This document shows, in pieces, positions 2,925-22,655 of a stretch of 35,936 nucleotides of DNA. Under the pieces are notes generated by a model that was not told where the DNA came from, did no database searches, and was given only the letters and a program-made list of their open reading frames with translations. Every line of letters begins with the position of its first letter. The first letter of the stretch is position 1. The translations under genes were made by a program, and so were the position numbers. Source of the DNA: a virus; the IMG/VR virus record IMGVR_UViG_3300009192_000016, positions 1 through 35,936 of that record; one strand, given 5' to 3'.

Positions 2925-3205
2925 TACTTTTTTTATATTTGTTTTTTGTAAAATTATTGTAAAATATAAATACAGTATATAAATATATAGTATATAATGT
3001 GTACGTAATATGTTTGAGATGTTAGGGGTGATGTATATGATAATTACGTGTAACTTTTAAAAGTGTTTCTTTAATAACGTATTATTCTAATAAATAGTTT
3101 TAAATTCTTCTTTTAGATAGTTAGTTTTAAATTGATTAGATTAAGTAATTGTTATTTCTCATTTTTTGATAATCAAGACAAATGAAGAGAGGAAGTACTC
3201 AATAC
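2925..3205. other. AT-rich upstream region of the pPIWI_RE-like gene
   Basis: The stretch is very AT-rich with repeated TATA elements at about 2965-2998, including TATAAT at 2993-2998 and TTGTAA boxes at 2946 and 2957. No pair has ideal 17-bp spacing, so any promoter for the following gene is only suggested. No gene is visible. The neighbouring 2406-2723 is also without a supported gene. Confidence 0.35.
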
Positions 3206-4405
3206 ATGGAAAAATTACGGTTATTAACATTTAAAAATATAGTAGAGCCACTTTTAAAGGAACATGTCTCATTTATATATTTTCCTATTGAATGGCTAGA
3301 CATTGTAGAGATACATTATAAGACATTTTTATTAACTAGTAAGTTAAAGCGTTTAAATGAAAGATTGTATGATATGTTTTCTGATATATTGTTTATTCAG
3401 CATAATCCGTATGTATTAAATGAAAATACGCCATGGATTGTGTCAAAAGAACCAATTAGGCAAGAACAACTTGATTATATATTTCAAAGTTGGTATGAGG
3501 TCATTCATGATTGGAAACCGAATCAATTAATGGAACCGCCAAAATATGAATGGCATGACGATTTGATTTCGAATGTAACAGTATTACATGATAGTGAAAC
3601 GTTTTCTAAATGGGTACCCGCATTAATTTCACATGTTTTTTGTGTACAACCTATACGAATTGAGAATAAAAATGAAGAAATCTATTTTTCTCCACTTCGA
3701 TCACAAAATATTTGTGAGGCAATGTCAGAGCCGATTAAAGATGAAAAAACACAAGACTTTTTCGCCTATGTATACCGATTTGAATGTATAACTCGTGGTG
3801 GTGAGAATATTCCATTATTAAAGGTTACAGTAGGTATTCGGAGATTCTACCAAGAATATAACCATCCCGATATCCCTTTACTTTTGCGACGAAAACGAGG
3901 CATGATATTGATTTCTACTTCAGAATTTGCATCAGATAATAAAAAAATGCGGTTTGTAAAGTTAAAAGTACAACAAGCTACAAACGGTATGAAATGGATT
4001 AAGTTATTTAGAACATTAAAAGATGATTTTCAAATAGGTGGAGAAATTGAATTAGACCATATTGTCCAATATCCGAAAGATTATATTGTCGGAACAAATA
4101 GAAGAGTATTACTTCCGTATAATGAGAGAATATATAAAGTGCAAGGTACTAAAAAAAAGCTAGGTATAAAAGTAAAGGAGAAAGGATATCTATTTAAAGA
4201 ATTTCAGCGGAAATTCTCTCATTTCACATTACTGCCAGAATGCAAAAGGGTAGCAACAAATAATGAAAATGAATTATTATCATTATACCCATCTAAATCC
4301 GCCTATAACAAGAGGTATTTGCGCCTTATTAAATACTATAGCCCACAATTTGCCCACGAGATTTTAAAAAATCATCATATTGATTCACTGCGGTTTCTTC
4401 CATAG
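3206..4405 (+). pseudogene. pPIWI_RE (DUF3962)-like gene, 5' part interrupted by prophage
   Basis: About 399 codons are open. The ATG at 3206 is preferred over the in-frame ATG at 3182 because an AGAGAGGA site lies at 3186-3193. The protein starts MEKLRLLTF and contains the FIYFPIEWLDIVEIHY segment, a repeated W/P pattern (NTPWIVSKEPI, then WYEVIHDWKP) and a VGIRRF beta segment. To me these match the N-terminal X region of pPIWI_RE proteins. Full-length members are far longer and carry MID and PIWI/RNase H domains, none of which is present here. The last 25 or so codons (from about 4329) overlap the integrase 3' end and are therefore phage-derived. I infer that the prophage recombined into this gene and the 3' half lies at the other prophage end. 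Family assignment is from pattern memory; an unrelated large protein remains possible. Confidence 0.55.
4270..4335. other. Probable left prophage attachment site (attL) zone
   Basis: The host-like reading frame passes into the end of the integrase gene here, and phage attP normally lies just beyond int. The core cannot be fixed because the right end is not in the window. A direct repeat of part of this stretch is expected there. Confidence 0.4.
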
Positions 4406-5492
4406 ATTTTGTTACATGTAGATAAACATCTGCTGTCATATTAATAGTGGTATGTCCAAGGCGCTCAGAAACATATTTTATATTTGCTCCACTTTGTAAC
4501 AGATGTACAGCATGTGTATGCCTGAAGCCATGTAATGTAATGTATTCGAAGCAACCATTTTTGCATGCTTTTTTCAAAAAAGCTAGCGTCGAAGCTTGTA
4601 ACATACAAGAATTATCTTCATTGGTAAACACAAAGTTATAATCCTTATAATATTTTCCGTTTTTTAAGGTGCTTTTAGCTTGTTCTTTTTTTATCGTCTT
4701 TAAAAGTGCTAATGTAGAAGCATCCAAAGTAAGTGTTCTTATACTACTTTTATTTTTAGGTGGTCCGAATTTTATAGATTGATTTCTTTGAGTGGTAATT
4801 AAAGTTTTGTTAATATAGACTTGTTTTTTTTCAAATTCTATATCATTCCATTGTAACGACAAACATTCTCCGATTCGTAAGCCAGTTCTCGATAAAAACA
4901 TAAATAGAGAATAGTATTTAAAAGTAGCTTGTTCATTTAAAACGTAGTTTAAAAATGATTCTAATTCATCAATGTCAAAGCATTTAATTTTTTTTCGATT
5001 GTCAATTACCTTATGTTCTTTGATACTAATTTTATTGGTTGGATTCTTAGTGAGAATTTCAAGTTCATTAACCGCTATTTCCAATGCATTGTGCATTGTA
5101 GAGTTAATCAGTAAAACCGTTTGCTTACTAAGTTTTTTTAGAAGATCATTTATAAATTTTTGGTATTTAACACGTGTTAAATCTTTTAATTTTATGTTAC
5201 CAAATGCAGGTAATATATACAATCGAATATTCTTTTTATAAACTTTATATGTTTGTTCAGAAATAGTTCCTTTTTTATAAGTATCTAGCCATTCATACAT
5301 ATAAGTGTTGAATGTTAAATTACTAATGTTTATGCCAATCCCGCTAGCTAACTTTTCTTCAACCTTAGCAGCAGCTAATTGTGCCTCTTTCTTTGTTTTA
5401 AATCCACCTTTAGATGTTTCTTTGTACTTCCCTAACTCTTTATATCTAACACGATATTCCCATTTGTCCTTACGTTTTCTAAAACTCGCCAT
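4329..5492 (-). CDS. int: Prophage tyrosine integrase
   Basis: This 387-aa protein integrates and excises the prophage by site-specific recombination. The ATG at 5492 follows GGAG with 8-nt spacing; a GTG at 5501 is in frame but overlaps that site. The N-terminus (ASFRKRKDKWEYRVRY) is the AP2-like arm-binding domain seen in ICEBs1/Tn916-type integrases, and the SAM-like core-binding domain follows. The catalytic domain shows Arg in SRTGLRIGE, Lys in the IKFGPPKNKSS turn, His-X-X-Arg in LHGFRHTHA, His in LGHTTINMTADVYLHV, and the Tyr nucleophile in that same segment. All five catalytic positions are present, so the enzyme looks intact. Its 3' end overlaps the interrupted host gene, which marks the left prophage boundary. 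Confidence 0.95.
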   Translation of the reverse strand: MASFRKRKDKWEYRVRYKELGKYKETSKGGFKTKKEAQLAAAKVEEKLASGIGINISNLTFNTYMYEWLDTYKKGTISEQTYKVYKKNIRLYILPAFGNIKLKDLTRVKYQKFINDLLKKLSKQTVLLINSTMHNALEIAVNELEILTKNPTNKISIKEHKVIDNRKKIKCFDIDELESFLNYVLNEQATFKYYSLFMFLSRTGLRIGECLSLQWNDIEFEKKQVYINKTLITTQRNQSIKFGPPKNKSSIRTLTLDASTLALLKTIKKEQAKSTLKNGKYYKDYNFVFTNEDNSCMLQASTLAFLKKACKNGCFEYITLHGFRHTHAVHLLQSGANIKYVSERLGHTTINMTADVYLHVTKSMEETAVNQYDDFLKSRGQIVGYSI

Positions 5493-5557
5493 TGTAATCA
5501 CTCCATTCTATTTTTAAAGAATGTTCTTCTTTTATGTGTAAAAATATATAGTGGACT

Positions 5558-18421: not shown

Positions 18422-18937
18422 ATGTGGCACGACATTTTTTTTGACAAAAACGGTGTTTTTCAATGGGCGAGTATAGCAGCAATGGTTTCATTTTTAGCAT
18501 TTGTTTCATCATTAATTTCTATTGGCGTTACATCGATGCAAGGAAAGAAAAACAGAAGGTCTACTACCTTGGTTACCTTAAGAATTCAAGAACTGAAGGA
18601 TTTAAGAGAGCAAGGAGTAGCTACAATATTATTAATACGGTCTTATTTAAATGAAAAAAATGTGAGATTAAATCCAAGTAATGCAAATATCTTAAAGACA
18701 GATCCTATAATTAATGAATTGAGCATACATCTTAGTAAATTATATTCAAAAGTATATCGATACACATTCGATGGCTCGGAACATGGTTCGGAATTATTGA
18801 TTACAATAGGTTTAAATCAACTTGTATTATTAAACTTAAATACTACTCAGCAACTAGTTGAAATAGATATAAAATTATATGATGCCCTCGATACATATTC
18901 AGGAGTTGAATATCAGGAAATTAAAAAGATGTTATAA
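18422..18937 (+). CDS. Membrane-anchored accessory protein between terS and terL
   Basis: This 171-aa protein starts at ATG after TTGGAGGT. One hydrophobic segment at about residues 15-37 (WASIAAMVSFLAFVSSLISI) is followed by a basic Lys/Arg stretch (GKKNRRS), predicting one membrane span with the C-terminus in the cytoplasm. The rest is helical. No known family. It has an extended -10 promoter and a terminator of its own and splits the normally adjacent terminase genes, so it looks like a recently acquired single-gene cassette. A role in superinfection exclusion or host modification is inferred from this layout only. Confidence 0.7.
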   Translation: MWHDIFFDKNGVFQWASIAAMVSFLAFVSSLISIGVTSMQGKKNRRSTTLVTLRIQELKDLREQGVATILLIRSYLNEKNVRLNPSNANILKTDPIINELSIHLSKLYSKVYRYTFDGSEHGSELLITIGLNQLVLLNLNTTQQLVEIDIKLYDALDTYSGVEYQEIKKML

Positions 18938-18994: not shown

Positions 18995-20722
18995 GTGATT
19001 GAACGAGGTGTTAATTATGCAGATATTTATGCAAAACAAGTAAGAAAGAATCCTAAAAAATATCCCGATACTATCAAAGCAATGGTAGATCGTTATTTTA
19101 AATGGAAAAAGCGTAAAGATATTTGGTTCGATGTGGACCGTGCAAATGAAATGATGGATTGGGTAGAAACGTTTGTCCGTCATACTAAAGGCGATTTAGC
19201 TGGGCAACCTTTTATCCTGGAAGATTGGGAGAAATTCGCTTACTCTTGGATCTATGGGTGGGTTCATAAGAATGAAAAAGGGCAAATTGTCCGAGTTACT
19301 CGTGAAGCTTACATTCAGGTTCCTAAGAAGAATGGTAAAACTTTAATTGGTGTGGGTGCTCTTGGTTATGCAATGTACGGCGAAGGAGTACTTAGTGCCG
19401 ATTGTTATTGTTGTGCAAGTGATTTTAACCAGGCGCAATATGCAGCAAAGCCATTTGCAGCAACAATTATGAACCATGATGTATTAATGGATTGTTCGCA
19501 CATATATAAAGGTCCAAAAGGGACAATTTCCAGTGTGACATATGATTATATTCGCGATGATTTAGCTTATCAGAATCAATTCATTGTTATGAGTAAAAAC
19601 ATTCAATCTATTGAGGGTTCTAATCCACACTTCATTTTAAATGATGAGCTTCATGCCCAAGAAAATATGGATCAGTACGATAACTTTAAATCAGCACAGG
19701 TTTCTCGTGCTGAGCCGATTATGTTTAATATCAGTACAGCTGGCAAAGGTTCTTCATCGGTTGGTATGCGAGTATATCGTGAAGCAAAAGAAGTATTGAA
19801 ACGTGATGATAATGATTCGAATTTCGTCATGATATACGAACCTAACAAGAACTATGATTGGACAGACCGTAATGTTTGGGCAATGGTTAACCCGAATATC
19901 GGTGTGTCTGTAACGATGAGCGCACTTGAAACAGAATTCATCTCAGCATCACGTTCAGCTCATAAAAAAGCCGAATTCCTTTCTAAACATTTGAATGTAT
20001 TCGTAAATGGAGCTGAAAACTTCTTTGAACAAGGACAAGTTGAGCATGTTCTTGTGGAAGACTTGGGTGATTTAACAGGTGAAACTTGCTATATCGGTTT
20101 AGATTTATCGAAAACAACCGATTTAACATGTGTTAGCTTGAATTTCCCTAACGCTGGTTATACCGAAGATGGAAAGTCTATTCTAAAAGTTAAACAAATG
20201 TATTTTGTACCTAATGAAGATATCGAACATCGTGAAAAAGAAGATAACGTTCCATATACTGATATGGTTGAACGTGGTTTTGTTACTTTCTGTGATGGCA
20301 AGATGATAAACCAAGACCAGGTTATGGATTATATTGTGGAATGCCTGAATTTGTATGATGTACAACAAATAAACTATGATCCAGCTATGTCTCAAAAGTT
20401 AATTGAAAAACTTGAGAATCTTGGTATTGAATGTATTTCTGTAGGTCAGTACCCTAACGTTATGAATGCGATGATGGATGATTCAGAAATACTTATTTAT
20501 GAAAAACGTATAATGACCGATAACCCTCTATTTGTTTATTGTGCTCTTAATGTTGTAGTTGTAACAAATATCAATGGAATGAAAGCACCAAGTAAGCGAC
20601 AGTCCAAAAAGAAGATTGATGGATTTGTTGCTTTTTTATGTGCTCATAAAGAAACGATGATGGTTATGGATAGCATAACTGAAGAAGGCATGGATGAATT
20701 AATTGGTGATATTTATCGATAA
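18995..20722 (+). CDS. terL: Terminase large subunit
   Basis: This 575-aa packaging motor and nuclease starts at GTG (18995) after GGAGGTGG. The ATPase domain has Walker A VPKKNGKT (109-116) and Walker B FILNDELH with catalytic Glu218. The RNase H-like nuclease domain begins at CYIGLDLSKTTDLTCVSL (first metal-binding Asp), continues with YDPAMSQKLIEKLENLGI, and has the last acidic residue in KKKIDGFVAFLCAH. Length and motif order are those of HK97/P27-associated Terminase_1 (YmfN-like) proteins. It appears intact. Confidence 0.95.
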   Translation: MIERGVNYADIYAKQVRKNPKKYPDTIKAMVDRYFKWKKRKDIWFDVDRANEMMDWVETFVRHTKGDLAGQPFILEDWEKFAYSWIYGWVHKNEKGQIVRVTREAYIQVPKKNGKTLIGVGALGYAMYGEGVLSADCYCCASDFNQAQYAAKPFAATIMNHDVLMDCSHIYKGPKGTISSVTYDYIRDDLAYQNQFIVMSKNIQSIEGSNPHFILNDELHAQENMDQYDNFKSAQVSRAEPIMFNISTAGKGSSSVGMRVYREAKEVLKRDDNDSNFVMIYEPNKNYDWTDRNVWAMVNPNIGVSVTMSALETEFISASRSAHKKAEFLSKHLNVFVNGAENFFEQGQVEHVLVEDLGDLTGETCYIGLDLSKTTDLTCVSLNFPNAGYTEDGKSILKVKQMYFVPNEDIEHREKEDNVPYTDMVERGFVTFCDGKMINQDQVMDYIVECLNLYDVQQINYDPAMSQKLIEKLENLGIECISVGQYPNVMNAMMDDSEILIYEKRIMTDNPLFVYCALNVVVVTNINGMKAPSKRQSKKKIDGFVAFLCAHKETMMVMDSITEEGMDELIGDIYR

Positions 20723-20736
20723 GGAGTGAATGGAAA

Positions 20737-20952
20737 ATGGATTATGGAAAAGCATTTGACATTGTGAAACAAGGTAAGAGAGGAATGCGTCTTCCGCATT
20801 GGCAACCTGATGTCGTTGTTCGCGCTCAGTTACCAGATGAAAACAGTAAAATGACGCATCCGTATTTATATGTAAGTAGTCGTTTTGGGAATGTACCGTG
20901 GATTGAAACGGTAGTAGAGAAATTCTCTGATAAGTGGGAGGTAGTTGAATAA
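20737..20952 (+). CDS. Tad2-like (DUF2829) protein, putative anti-Thoeris
   Basis: This is a 71-aa protein. It follows the DUF2829 pattern closely: MDYGKAFDIVKQGKRGMRLP, HWQPDVVV, DENSKMTHPYLYVSSRFGNV, PWIETVV and final KWEVVE. Known from the family: the SPO1 Tad2 protein of this family blocks the Thoeris defence by sequestering the cyclic ADP-ribose-type signal made by its TIR enzyme. I infer a similar signal-binding role, but not all DUF2829 proteins are shown to be active. Its place between terminase and portal is an accessory slot. It overlaps the next small gene by one base, so the two are co-translated. Confidence 0.78.
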   Translation: MDYGKAFDIVKQGKRGMRLPHWQPDVVVRAQLPDENSKMTHPYLYVSSRFGNVPWIETVVEKFSDKWEVVE

Positions 20953-21125
20953 TGAATAATGAAACAAGAGTTGTTAAGGAAGAGGTTGAAGACAAATTAA
21001 CTTCTACAATTATTCAGTTTGCTACTAAGGAAGGTCTAACTATAAAAAATATAAAAGAAGTAATGAATAAAGTTAATGTATACATGGAGCAAAATGCAAT
21101 TATTGAAAAAGACTACCACATTTAA
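20952..21125 (+). CDS. Small protein co-translated with the Tad2-like gene, 57 aa
   Basis: The ATG at 20952 overlaps the Tad2-like stop (ATAATG), with GGGAGGT upstream. The protein is helical and charged: MNNETRVVKEEVEDKLTSTI, then GLTIKNIKEVMNKVNVYMEQ. It ends DYHI within the terminator stem. No family recognised. Tight coupling suggests a partner function with the Tad2-like protein. Confidence 0.65.
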   Translation: MNNETRVVKEEVEDKLTSTIIQFATKEGLTIKNIKEVMNKVNVYMEQNAIIEKDYHI

Positions 21126-21141
21126 AGTGGATAGTCTTTTT
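21106..21141. terminator. Bidirectional terminator between the 57-aa and DUF1883 genes
   Basis: AAAAAGACTACCAC (21106-21119) pairs with GTGGATAGTCTTTTT (21127-21141) with a single bulged base. The long A/T flanks make it work in both directions between convergent genes. Confidence 0.88.
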
Positions 21142-21145
21142 GAGT

Positions 21146-21385
21146 TTAGTAGAAATTATACTGGTATCGGCCGTTACATTCGACAATAAGGTACCATCTA
21201 CCAGCGCCTTCTACAGTGATAGTCACAGGTGTTCGATCATAATGACCACCAAAGTACTCGTAGTTTTGTCCAGATGAGTATCTTCTGTAATTATTGCTGT
21301 TTACTAAAAAAACATTACAAGCGTGTGGAATATCGACCTGAGCAGTTAAAACGCCGTTAGAATTAGCATAGGGAATTTGCGCCAT
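21146..21385 (-). CDS. DUF1883-family protein, leftward
   Basis: This 79-aa protein has a strong AAGGAGGTGATAAT site. ACNVFLVNSNNYRRYSSGQN, then YFGGHYDRTPVTITVEGAGR and WYLIVEC, follow the DUF1883 pattern (CNV.L.d..N...Y..G, GGh, PV.i.vp..G.W), a small beta-sandwich of unknown function. It is transcribed against the morphogenesis genes, shares a bidirectional terminator with them, and may use TTCCTT/TATTAT upstream as promoter, so it is an independent cassette. I recall DUF1883 domains fused to TIR domains in some bacteria; that link should be checked. Confidence 0.75.
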   Translation of the reverse strand: MAQIPYANSNGVLTAQVDIPHACNVFLVNSNNYRRYSSGQNYEYFGGHYDRTPVTITVEGAGRWYLIVECNGRYQYNFY

Positions 21386-21470: not shown

Positions 21471-22655
21471 TTGAGTTTAAGGGATAGATTTTCAAATTTT
21501 TTATTTAAACAGGCTGAAAAACGCGGTTATCTTGACGACGTTTTAGGTAAAAGCATTCGTTACGGTGGTGTGTATGTTACAGATTCAAACATCTTGCAAT
21601 CTAGTGATGTTTACGAATTACTACAAGATATTAGTAATCAAATGGTATTGGCTGATATTGTTGTGAAAGATGAATTCGGTAATGAAATCAAAGATGATAT
21701 TGCACTTCAAATCTTAAGGAATCCGAACAACTATCTTACACAATCTGAATTTATTAAATTAATGACAAATACCTATTTACTCGAGGGAGAAACATTCCCG
21801 ATATTAAATGGTGCTCAAATACATTTAGCTTCAAATGTTTTTACAGAGTTAGATGATAATTTAGTAGAGCATTTTAATATTGGTGGGGAAGAAATTCCTC
21901 CATTTATGATTCGTCATGTGAAAAATATTGGTGCAGATCATTTAAGAGGAAAAGGCCTTCTTGATTTGGGAAGAGATACACTAGAAGGCGTTATGTCAGC
22001 TGAGAAAACTTTAACTGACAAATATAAAAAGGGTGGACTATTAGCATTCTTGTTGAATTTGGATGCTCATATCAATCCACAGAATGGTGCGCAGTCAAAG
22101 TTAATCAATGCAATTTTAGATCAACTGGAATCAATCGATGAGTCAAGGTCTGTAAAAATGATTCCTCTTGGAAAAGGGTACTCGATTGACACGCTTAAAA
22201 GCCCGCTAGACGATGAAAAGACCTTAGCATATCTAAATGTATATAAGAAGGACTTAGGTAAGTTTTTAGGCATAAATGTGGATACATACACAGAGTTAAT
22301 CAAAGAAGATATTGAAAAAGCAATGATGTATATCCACAACAAAGCAGTAAGACCAATAATGAAAAATTTTGAAGACCATTTGAGTCTTCTTTTTTATGGC
22401 CATAATTCGGGAAAACGAATTAAATTCAAGATTAATATTCTTGACTTTGTTACTTATAGCAACAAGACAAATATCGGTTATAACCTTGTGCGTACAGCCA
22501 TTACTTCACCTGATAATGTTGCCGACATGCTTGGATTCCCTAAACAAAATACAAAGGAATCACAAGCTATATACATTTCAAATGATCTAACTGAAATCGG
22601 CAAGAAAGAAGCGGCCGATGGTTCATTGGGAGGAGGTGAAGAGAATGAAAATTGA
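21471..22655 (+). CDS. Portal protein, HK97 family
   Basis: This 394-aa protein starts at TTG (21471) after AGGTGAG. The portal pattern is visible in DVYELLQDISNQMVLADIVV near the start. YGHNSGKRIKFKINILDFVT and a C-terminal region of helices with ISNDLTEIGK follow, as in HK97/SPP1-type portals. It forms the dodecameric ring at one capsid vertex through which DNA enters. It sits between terL and the protease, the standard order once the accessory cassette is set aside. It overlaps the protease gene slightly. Confidence 0.9.
   Translation: MSLRDRFSNFLFKQAEKRGYLDDVLGKSIRYGGVYVTDSNILQSSDVYELLQDISNQMVLADIVVKDEFGNEIKDDIALQILRNPNNYLTQSEFIKLMTNTYLLEGETFPILNGAQIHLASNVFTELDDNLVEHFNIGGEEIPPFMIRHVKNIGADHLRGKGLLDLGRDTLEGVMSAEKTLTDKYKKGGLLAFLLNLDAHINPQNGAQSKLINAILDQLESIDESRSVKMIPLGKGYSIDTLKSPLDDEKTLAYLNVYKKDLGKFLGINVDTYTELIKEDIEKAMMYIHNKAVRPIMKNFEDHLSLLFYGHNSGKRIKFKINILDFVTYSNKTNIGYNLVRTAITSPDNVADMLGFPKQNTKESQAIYISNDLTEIGKKEAADGSLGGGEENEN

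Follow-up and report, generated by a model that had tools for sequence, protein, structure and literature searches.

The closest described relatives of the locus examined here are phage sponges of immune signals that belong to the Tad2 family (PF11195). SPO1 Tad2 (gp34.65; PDB 8sme, 8smf, 8smg and 8wje), from a Bacillus phage, is an anti-Thoeris sponge for gcADPR, with a pocket described as comprising loop beta1-beta2, loop beta3-beta4, strand beta4, loop beta4-alpha3 and helix alpha3 (PMC12043709). ModTad2 (PDB 8v3e and 9eib) is a His-ADPR sponge directed against type II Thoeris, and the SPO1/ModTad2 type is defined in part by a homotetramer with pockets between protomers. HgmTad2 and SptTad2 (PDB 8kbi and 8wjd) are sponges as well, and Tad2 has been reported to bind cyclic dinucleotides via a beta2-beta5 insertion (PMC12043709). 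Two further kinds of phage signal sponge, with folds unrelated to Tad2, also bear on this locus. Acb4 (PDB 9e4w) belongs to PF13876 and has been shown experimentally to be a sponge of the CBASS signal (PMC11722364); the other kind is the Acb2/Tad1-hairpin proteins (PF24729).

The window analysed here, a virus record of 35,936 bp, encodes a short protein of the Tad2 type at positions 20737-20952 on the plus strand. Its gene, an open reading frame of 71 codons with an ATG start, begins 14 nt past the stop of the terminase large subunit gene (TerL; 18995-20722, plus strand; PF20441 and PF03354), separated from it by a leader (20723-20736, plus strand) that carries the ribosome-binding site GGAGTGA. 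Downstream lies the portal gene (21471-22655, plus strand; PF04860). A first-pass annotation of this DNA had placed a Tad2-like reading frame between terminase and portal and had claimed the DUF2829/Tad2 pattern over most of the protein; both statements hold, as PF11195 matches across the full model (profile positions 1-73 of 73; E-value 2.3e-9) with 38.1 bits against a Pfam gathering cut-off of 25 bits. The protein also matches phrog_1048, while searches of NCBIfam and PADLOC returned nothing for it. No other PF11195 gene occurs in the record. The nearest relative, in L006, is 96% identical, and the substitutions between the two genes are mostly synonymous (dN/dS 0.08). With values of 0.03-0.12 among other short Tad2 members, the gene is under strong purifying selection.

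Searched on its own against the PDB with phmmer, the protein gave no match. A family profile built from 13 and then 78 relatives retrieved seven distinct PDB sequences, with E-values from 7e-15 to 4e-12, each a PF11195-family entry deposited either as Tad2 or as AcrIIA7/type II CRISPR inhibitor. The AlphaFold2 model of the protein, predicted as a monomer, has a pLDDT of 96.1, and a Foldseek search of the PDB with this model places Tad2 chains from SPO1 and Myroides at ranks 1-19 (probability 1.00, TMq 0.74-0.83), the first fold other than Tad2 having a probability of 0.38. In a library of predicted viral structures, the named matches among the top 30 are mostly Tad2-like or DUF2829. Profile search and predicted structure together confirm the family and fold of the 71-residue protein. 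Similarity in sequence is low, with 12-16% identity to the 89-residue SPO1 Tad2 and 17-20% to ModTad2 in structural alignment; HgmTad2 and SptTad2 match in family and fold by profile. The comparison with SPO1 Tad2 that the first-pass annotation had proposed as a check thus splits, since the modelled fold matches but, in the alignment, the segments that border the SPO1 pocket, RSGWNGKN and SQTD, are replaced.

This replacement extends well beyond one protein. A tree built from 82 rows sets the short proteins on one side of a branch with support 100/99, and SPO1 Tad2, ModTad2, SptTad2 and HgmTad2 all lie across it, with ModTad2 grouped with the long Tad2 of L111; the alignment has few columns and the bootstrap did not converge, but the split of the short clade is clear nonetheless. 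Three tryptophans, W22, W55 and W67, are invariant in every Tad2 group, including the characterised proteins and the one in the window. The groups outside the short clade share R19, G21-W-N-G, S58 and D61, frequently together with M/I26 and F/W27. Short-clade proteins instead have L19, a variable residue 21, no GWNG, D25-V26, T58 and E61, near-universally among 54 rows, so that the residues common to characterised Tad2s in these segments (R-x-G-W-N-G-K and S-x-x-D) have given way to others in all, or almost all, of these rows. The new residue set is as conserved as the original one, and most of the switches fall in the published pocket elements of SPO1 Tad2, a comparison that concerns bordering segments rather than individual ligand contacts. 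The long beta2-beta5 insertion of HgmTad2 and SptTad2 is absent from the short clade in the profile alignment; SptTad2 has D-E-x-S-K where the short clade has its DExSKM motif. As the pocket-bordering segments differ across the whole clade, the specificity of SPO1 Tad2 should not be transferred to it, and a ligand is probably held otherwise than in the SPO1 pocket. Read from the alignment, the short clade has probably kept the fold and changed its ligand specificity. A search of the literature outside subscription papers found no description of this clade or of the gene cassette in which it occurs.

The position of the gene is as informative as its sequence. Among the matches listed, 78 relatives have both TerL and portal genes, and the junction between the two is bare in some (about 11-25 nt) and cargo-bearing in the rest. 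Where TerL is at least 93% identical, there are at least 25 distinct junctions, 3 of them bare and 22 with 108-1645 bp of inserted sequence. Both edges of this slot are conserved. The left edge is the leader, found in identical form after the TerL stop in L006, L007, L017, L035, L042, L072 and L179, and the right edge is the portal ribosome-binding site, GAAA(GGC/TGA)GGTGAGAAA, conserved in relatives. Cargo is varied, and some of its genes lie on the opposite strand. The commonest cargo family is PF11195, at six distinct loci after clustering plus the window, L006 and L007, these being counts of the matches listed among viral contigs and not natural frequencies.

Among the relatives this slot also carries unexplained cargo, namely a Cas2-like protein encoded on the minus strand (L023; PADLOC Cas2b, 1e-5), a minus-strand family of 126 residues (L017 and L024) and a minus-strand family of 64 residues (L019, L033 and L051), all of which are, by position, candidate anti-defence or moron genes.

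The rest of the slot in the window, on which the first-pass annotation was silent, holds two more genes. A second cargo gene of 57 codons, ORF57 (20952-21125, plus strand), has a start that overlaps the Tad2 stop (TAATG); it matches phrog_19952 (E-value 3e-4), returned no match in a search of phage records, and occupies the place that Acb4 or a long Tad2 takes in relatives. On the opposite strand, and so against the late operon, lies a DUF1883 gene of 79 codons (21146-21385, minus strand; PF08980, 56.8 bits), for whose product a solved relative exists (2b1y). Between the two is a hairpin flanked by A5 and T5 (21106-21141), with a folding energy of -17.9 kcal/mol (z -4.7) on the plus strand and -15.9 kcal/mol (z -5.3) on the minus strand. 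Although a consensus terminator scan did not include it among its calls, it is likely a terminator that acts in both directions, separating ORF57 from the DUF1883 gene, and it could also end late transcription ahead of the portal gene. In L179 the order is TerL, ORF57 (89% identical in protein), DUF1883 in the same minus-strand placement, and portal, with no Tad2; there the leader GATAAGGAGTGAGTGGAAA runs directly into the ORF57 start, while in the window the 216-bp Tad2 gene stands between. Judged from these junctions, the short Tad2 gene is a dispensable single-gene cargo and not a needed head protein, because the slot is bare or Tad2-free in close relatives and L179 has the adjoining cargo without Tad2.

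Two other places in the window are of interest in their own right. The flanking reading frame at 3182-4405 (plus strand) corresponds to the 5' half of a gene for the defence protein pPIWI_RE (PADLOC PprPIWI, 407 bits, profile positions 3-348 of 718; Pfam PF13111) and is cut off where the prophage integrase gene (4329-5501, minus strand) begins, so the prophage, whose right end lies outside the window, seems to have inserted itself into a defence gene of the host. The gap between the small (TerS) and large terminase subunit genes encodes a 171-residue accessory protein (18422-18937, plus strand) that probably has a membrane segment and matches no family convincingly. At this place L006 encodes another, unlike protein of membrane character, so the gap may be another cargo slot.

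In several related phages the short Tad2 gene is part of a cassette. Writing S for short Tad2, L for canonical Tad2 of 85-90 residues and G for a PF13876 protein, the patterns S, L, SG, SL, SLG and LG always keep the order S-L-G; departures from these patterns are few, each seen once or twice. Genes within cassettes start on the preceding stop (TAATG), as ORF57 does on Tad2 in the window. Short Tad2 is followed in this overlapping fashion by canonical Tad2, Acb4 or both in L006, L007, L042, L107-L109, L111, L115 and L120, among others. Tandem short-then-long pairs with overlapping stop and start occur in L107, L108, L109, L111, L115, L116, L118 and L120, and in L111, L108 and L120 an Acb4-family gene is added after the pair. 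Cassettes sit not only in the TerL-portal slot but also in an unrelated backbone of the SPP1/BceA1 type, between a minor head gene and an apparent scaffold gene; in phage SpaA1, for instance, a long Tad2 is annotated between the minor head and scaffold genes.

The identity of the G component was examined by modelling the PF13876 member of L006, whose best model has a pLDDT of 90, the other four being lower, and whose first 13 PDB matches are SPO1 Acb4. PF13876 is present in 4 of the 50 Tad2-bearing records tested, one of which (L035) has a long Tad2; a constant association of PF13876 with short Tad2 was therefore rejected, and the Acb4 cassette counts as one of several arrangements. The 71-residue second protein of L017, L027 and L072 resembles a reduced Gp49/Acb4 by eye but was rejected as one (hhalign probability 2%). 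An Acb2/Tad1-hairpin gene adjoins the short Tad2 gene in L099, L105, L106 and L127, overlapping it in three of these, and in L167 such a gene lies beside an intermediate Tad2 form. The window itself has no Acb4, second Tad2 or Acb2/Tad1-type gene beside its Tad2. An anti-defence role for the short gene has indirect support from the company it keeps in relatives, where ordered, overlapping cassettes join it to genes for Acb4, canonical Tad2 and Acb2/Tad1-hairpin proteins.

Fold, family and gene company lead us to propose that the 71-residue protein is a sponge for a nucleotide signal, encoded in a swappable slot of the late operon, a reading to which we assign a probability of roughly 0.62. We infer that this small Tad2-fold protein would be made together with the late head genes, would act as an oligomer that captures an immune second messenger of nucleotide type and keeps it sequestered, and would so leave the host effector untriggered during virion assembly. 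Its gene would be one interchangeable item of the cargo slot, the other items in relatives including canonical Tad2 and Acb4. The SPO1 Tad2 gene, in contrast, lies outside the head module, in a run of small genes. The first-pass annotation had set the late location apart from the early expression expected of many anti-defence genes, but the contrast is weak, as at least two phage backbones have Tad2 genes within their head module. The major head protein of the phage has been reported to elicit a response from the Thoeris sensor ThsB1 (PMC12043709), and a sponge made at the same time as the head proteins would therefore be well timed.

That the protein neutralises Thoeris by binding its signal, as first annotated, is a narrower matter. 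A plain Tad2 would sequester gcADPR, or His-ADPR, in a pocket like that of SPO1 Tad2 or ModTad2, and family and fold are those expected of one. SPO1 Tad2 binds gcADPR and ModTad2 His-ADPR despite low mutual identity (PMC13299392; title of 9eib), so the fold tolerates change. Nevertheless, R19, G21-W-N-G, F27, S58 and D61 of all four characterised Tad2s are replaced clade-wide, and several phages carry a canonical Tad2 immediately next to the short one, an arrangement suggesting that they do different jobs. For both reasons the Thoeris-blocking claim, so far as alignments and gene order can weigh it, is weaker than the claim of a sponge, and we regard a plain Tad2 as unlikely. The tandem arrangement could also be taken to mean that the short protein functions solely as part of a hetero-oligomer with long Tad2, given the fixed short-then-long order with overlapping starts and the natural fusions in L114 (1063-1551) and L119, where a single reading frame joins a divergent N-terminal PF11195 copy to a short-clade copy. 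Most short genes have no adjoining long partner, however (53 S alone versus 8 SL or SLG in adjoining DNA, among the matches listed), and the window offers no second PF11195 gene at all, which makes an obligate partnership very improbable.

The slot and the family allow two more interpretations. The presence of 9kzr (AcrIIA7) and 8kbi among the seven profile matches, and of PF11195-fold chains deposited as AcrIIA7 or type II CRISPR-Cas inhibitors, raises the question of an anti-CRISPR of the AcrIIA7 kind. Yet 9kzr has 158 residues and extends past the Tad2 domain with sequence absent from the window protein, it is not among the structure-search matches listed, and the genes that accompany short Tad2 are signal sponges rather than CRISPR inhibitors; we give this interpretation scant credence. 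A small accessory protein of the head, of packaging or of nucleotide metabolism, with no part in anti-defence, would account for a gene surrounded by head genes, as in the window and in many relatives. Apart from sponge genes, the commonest annotated neighbours of short Tad2 are indeed head and packaging genes, and some short members in larger phages lie next to dUTPase or other nucleotide-metabolism genes, two neighbouring proteins being dUTPases. Against such a role, close relatives with near-identical TerL and portal have the same junction without the gene, the other cargo of the slot is unrelated and may lie on the opposite strand, and proven sponges exist within the Tad2 family, so that an accessory function appears quite improbable.

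Within the preferred reading of a signal sponge, a more specific picture can be drawn, which we offer tentatively and consider somewhat doubtful. The short clade may form a separate group of sponges for a signal that its neighbours do not cover, carried in a swappable cassette of the head module (short Tad2, long Tad2 and Acb4; elsewhere Acb2/Tad1), with the sponge appearing together with the capsid protein that can trigger sensing. If the clade is a sponge whose specificity is new, this would indicate an immune signal often met by phages. The cassette order serves as a positional rule for finding further anti-defence genes, with ORF57 and the other slot cargoes among the candidates. Such a picture, if true, would also fit the idea that sponges can be expressed alongside the capsid proteins reported to trigger Thoeris, and not in early infection only.
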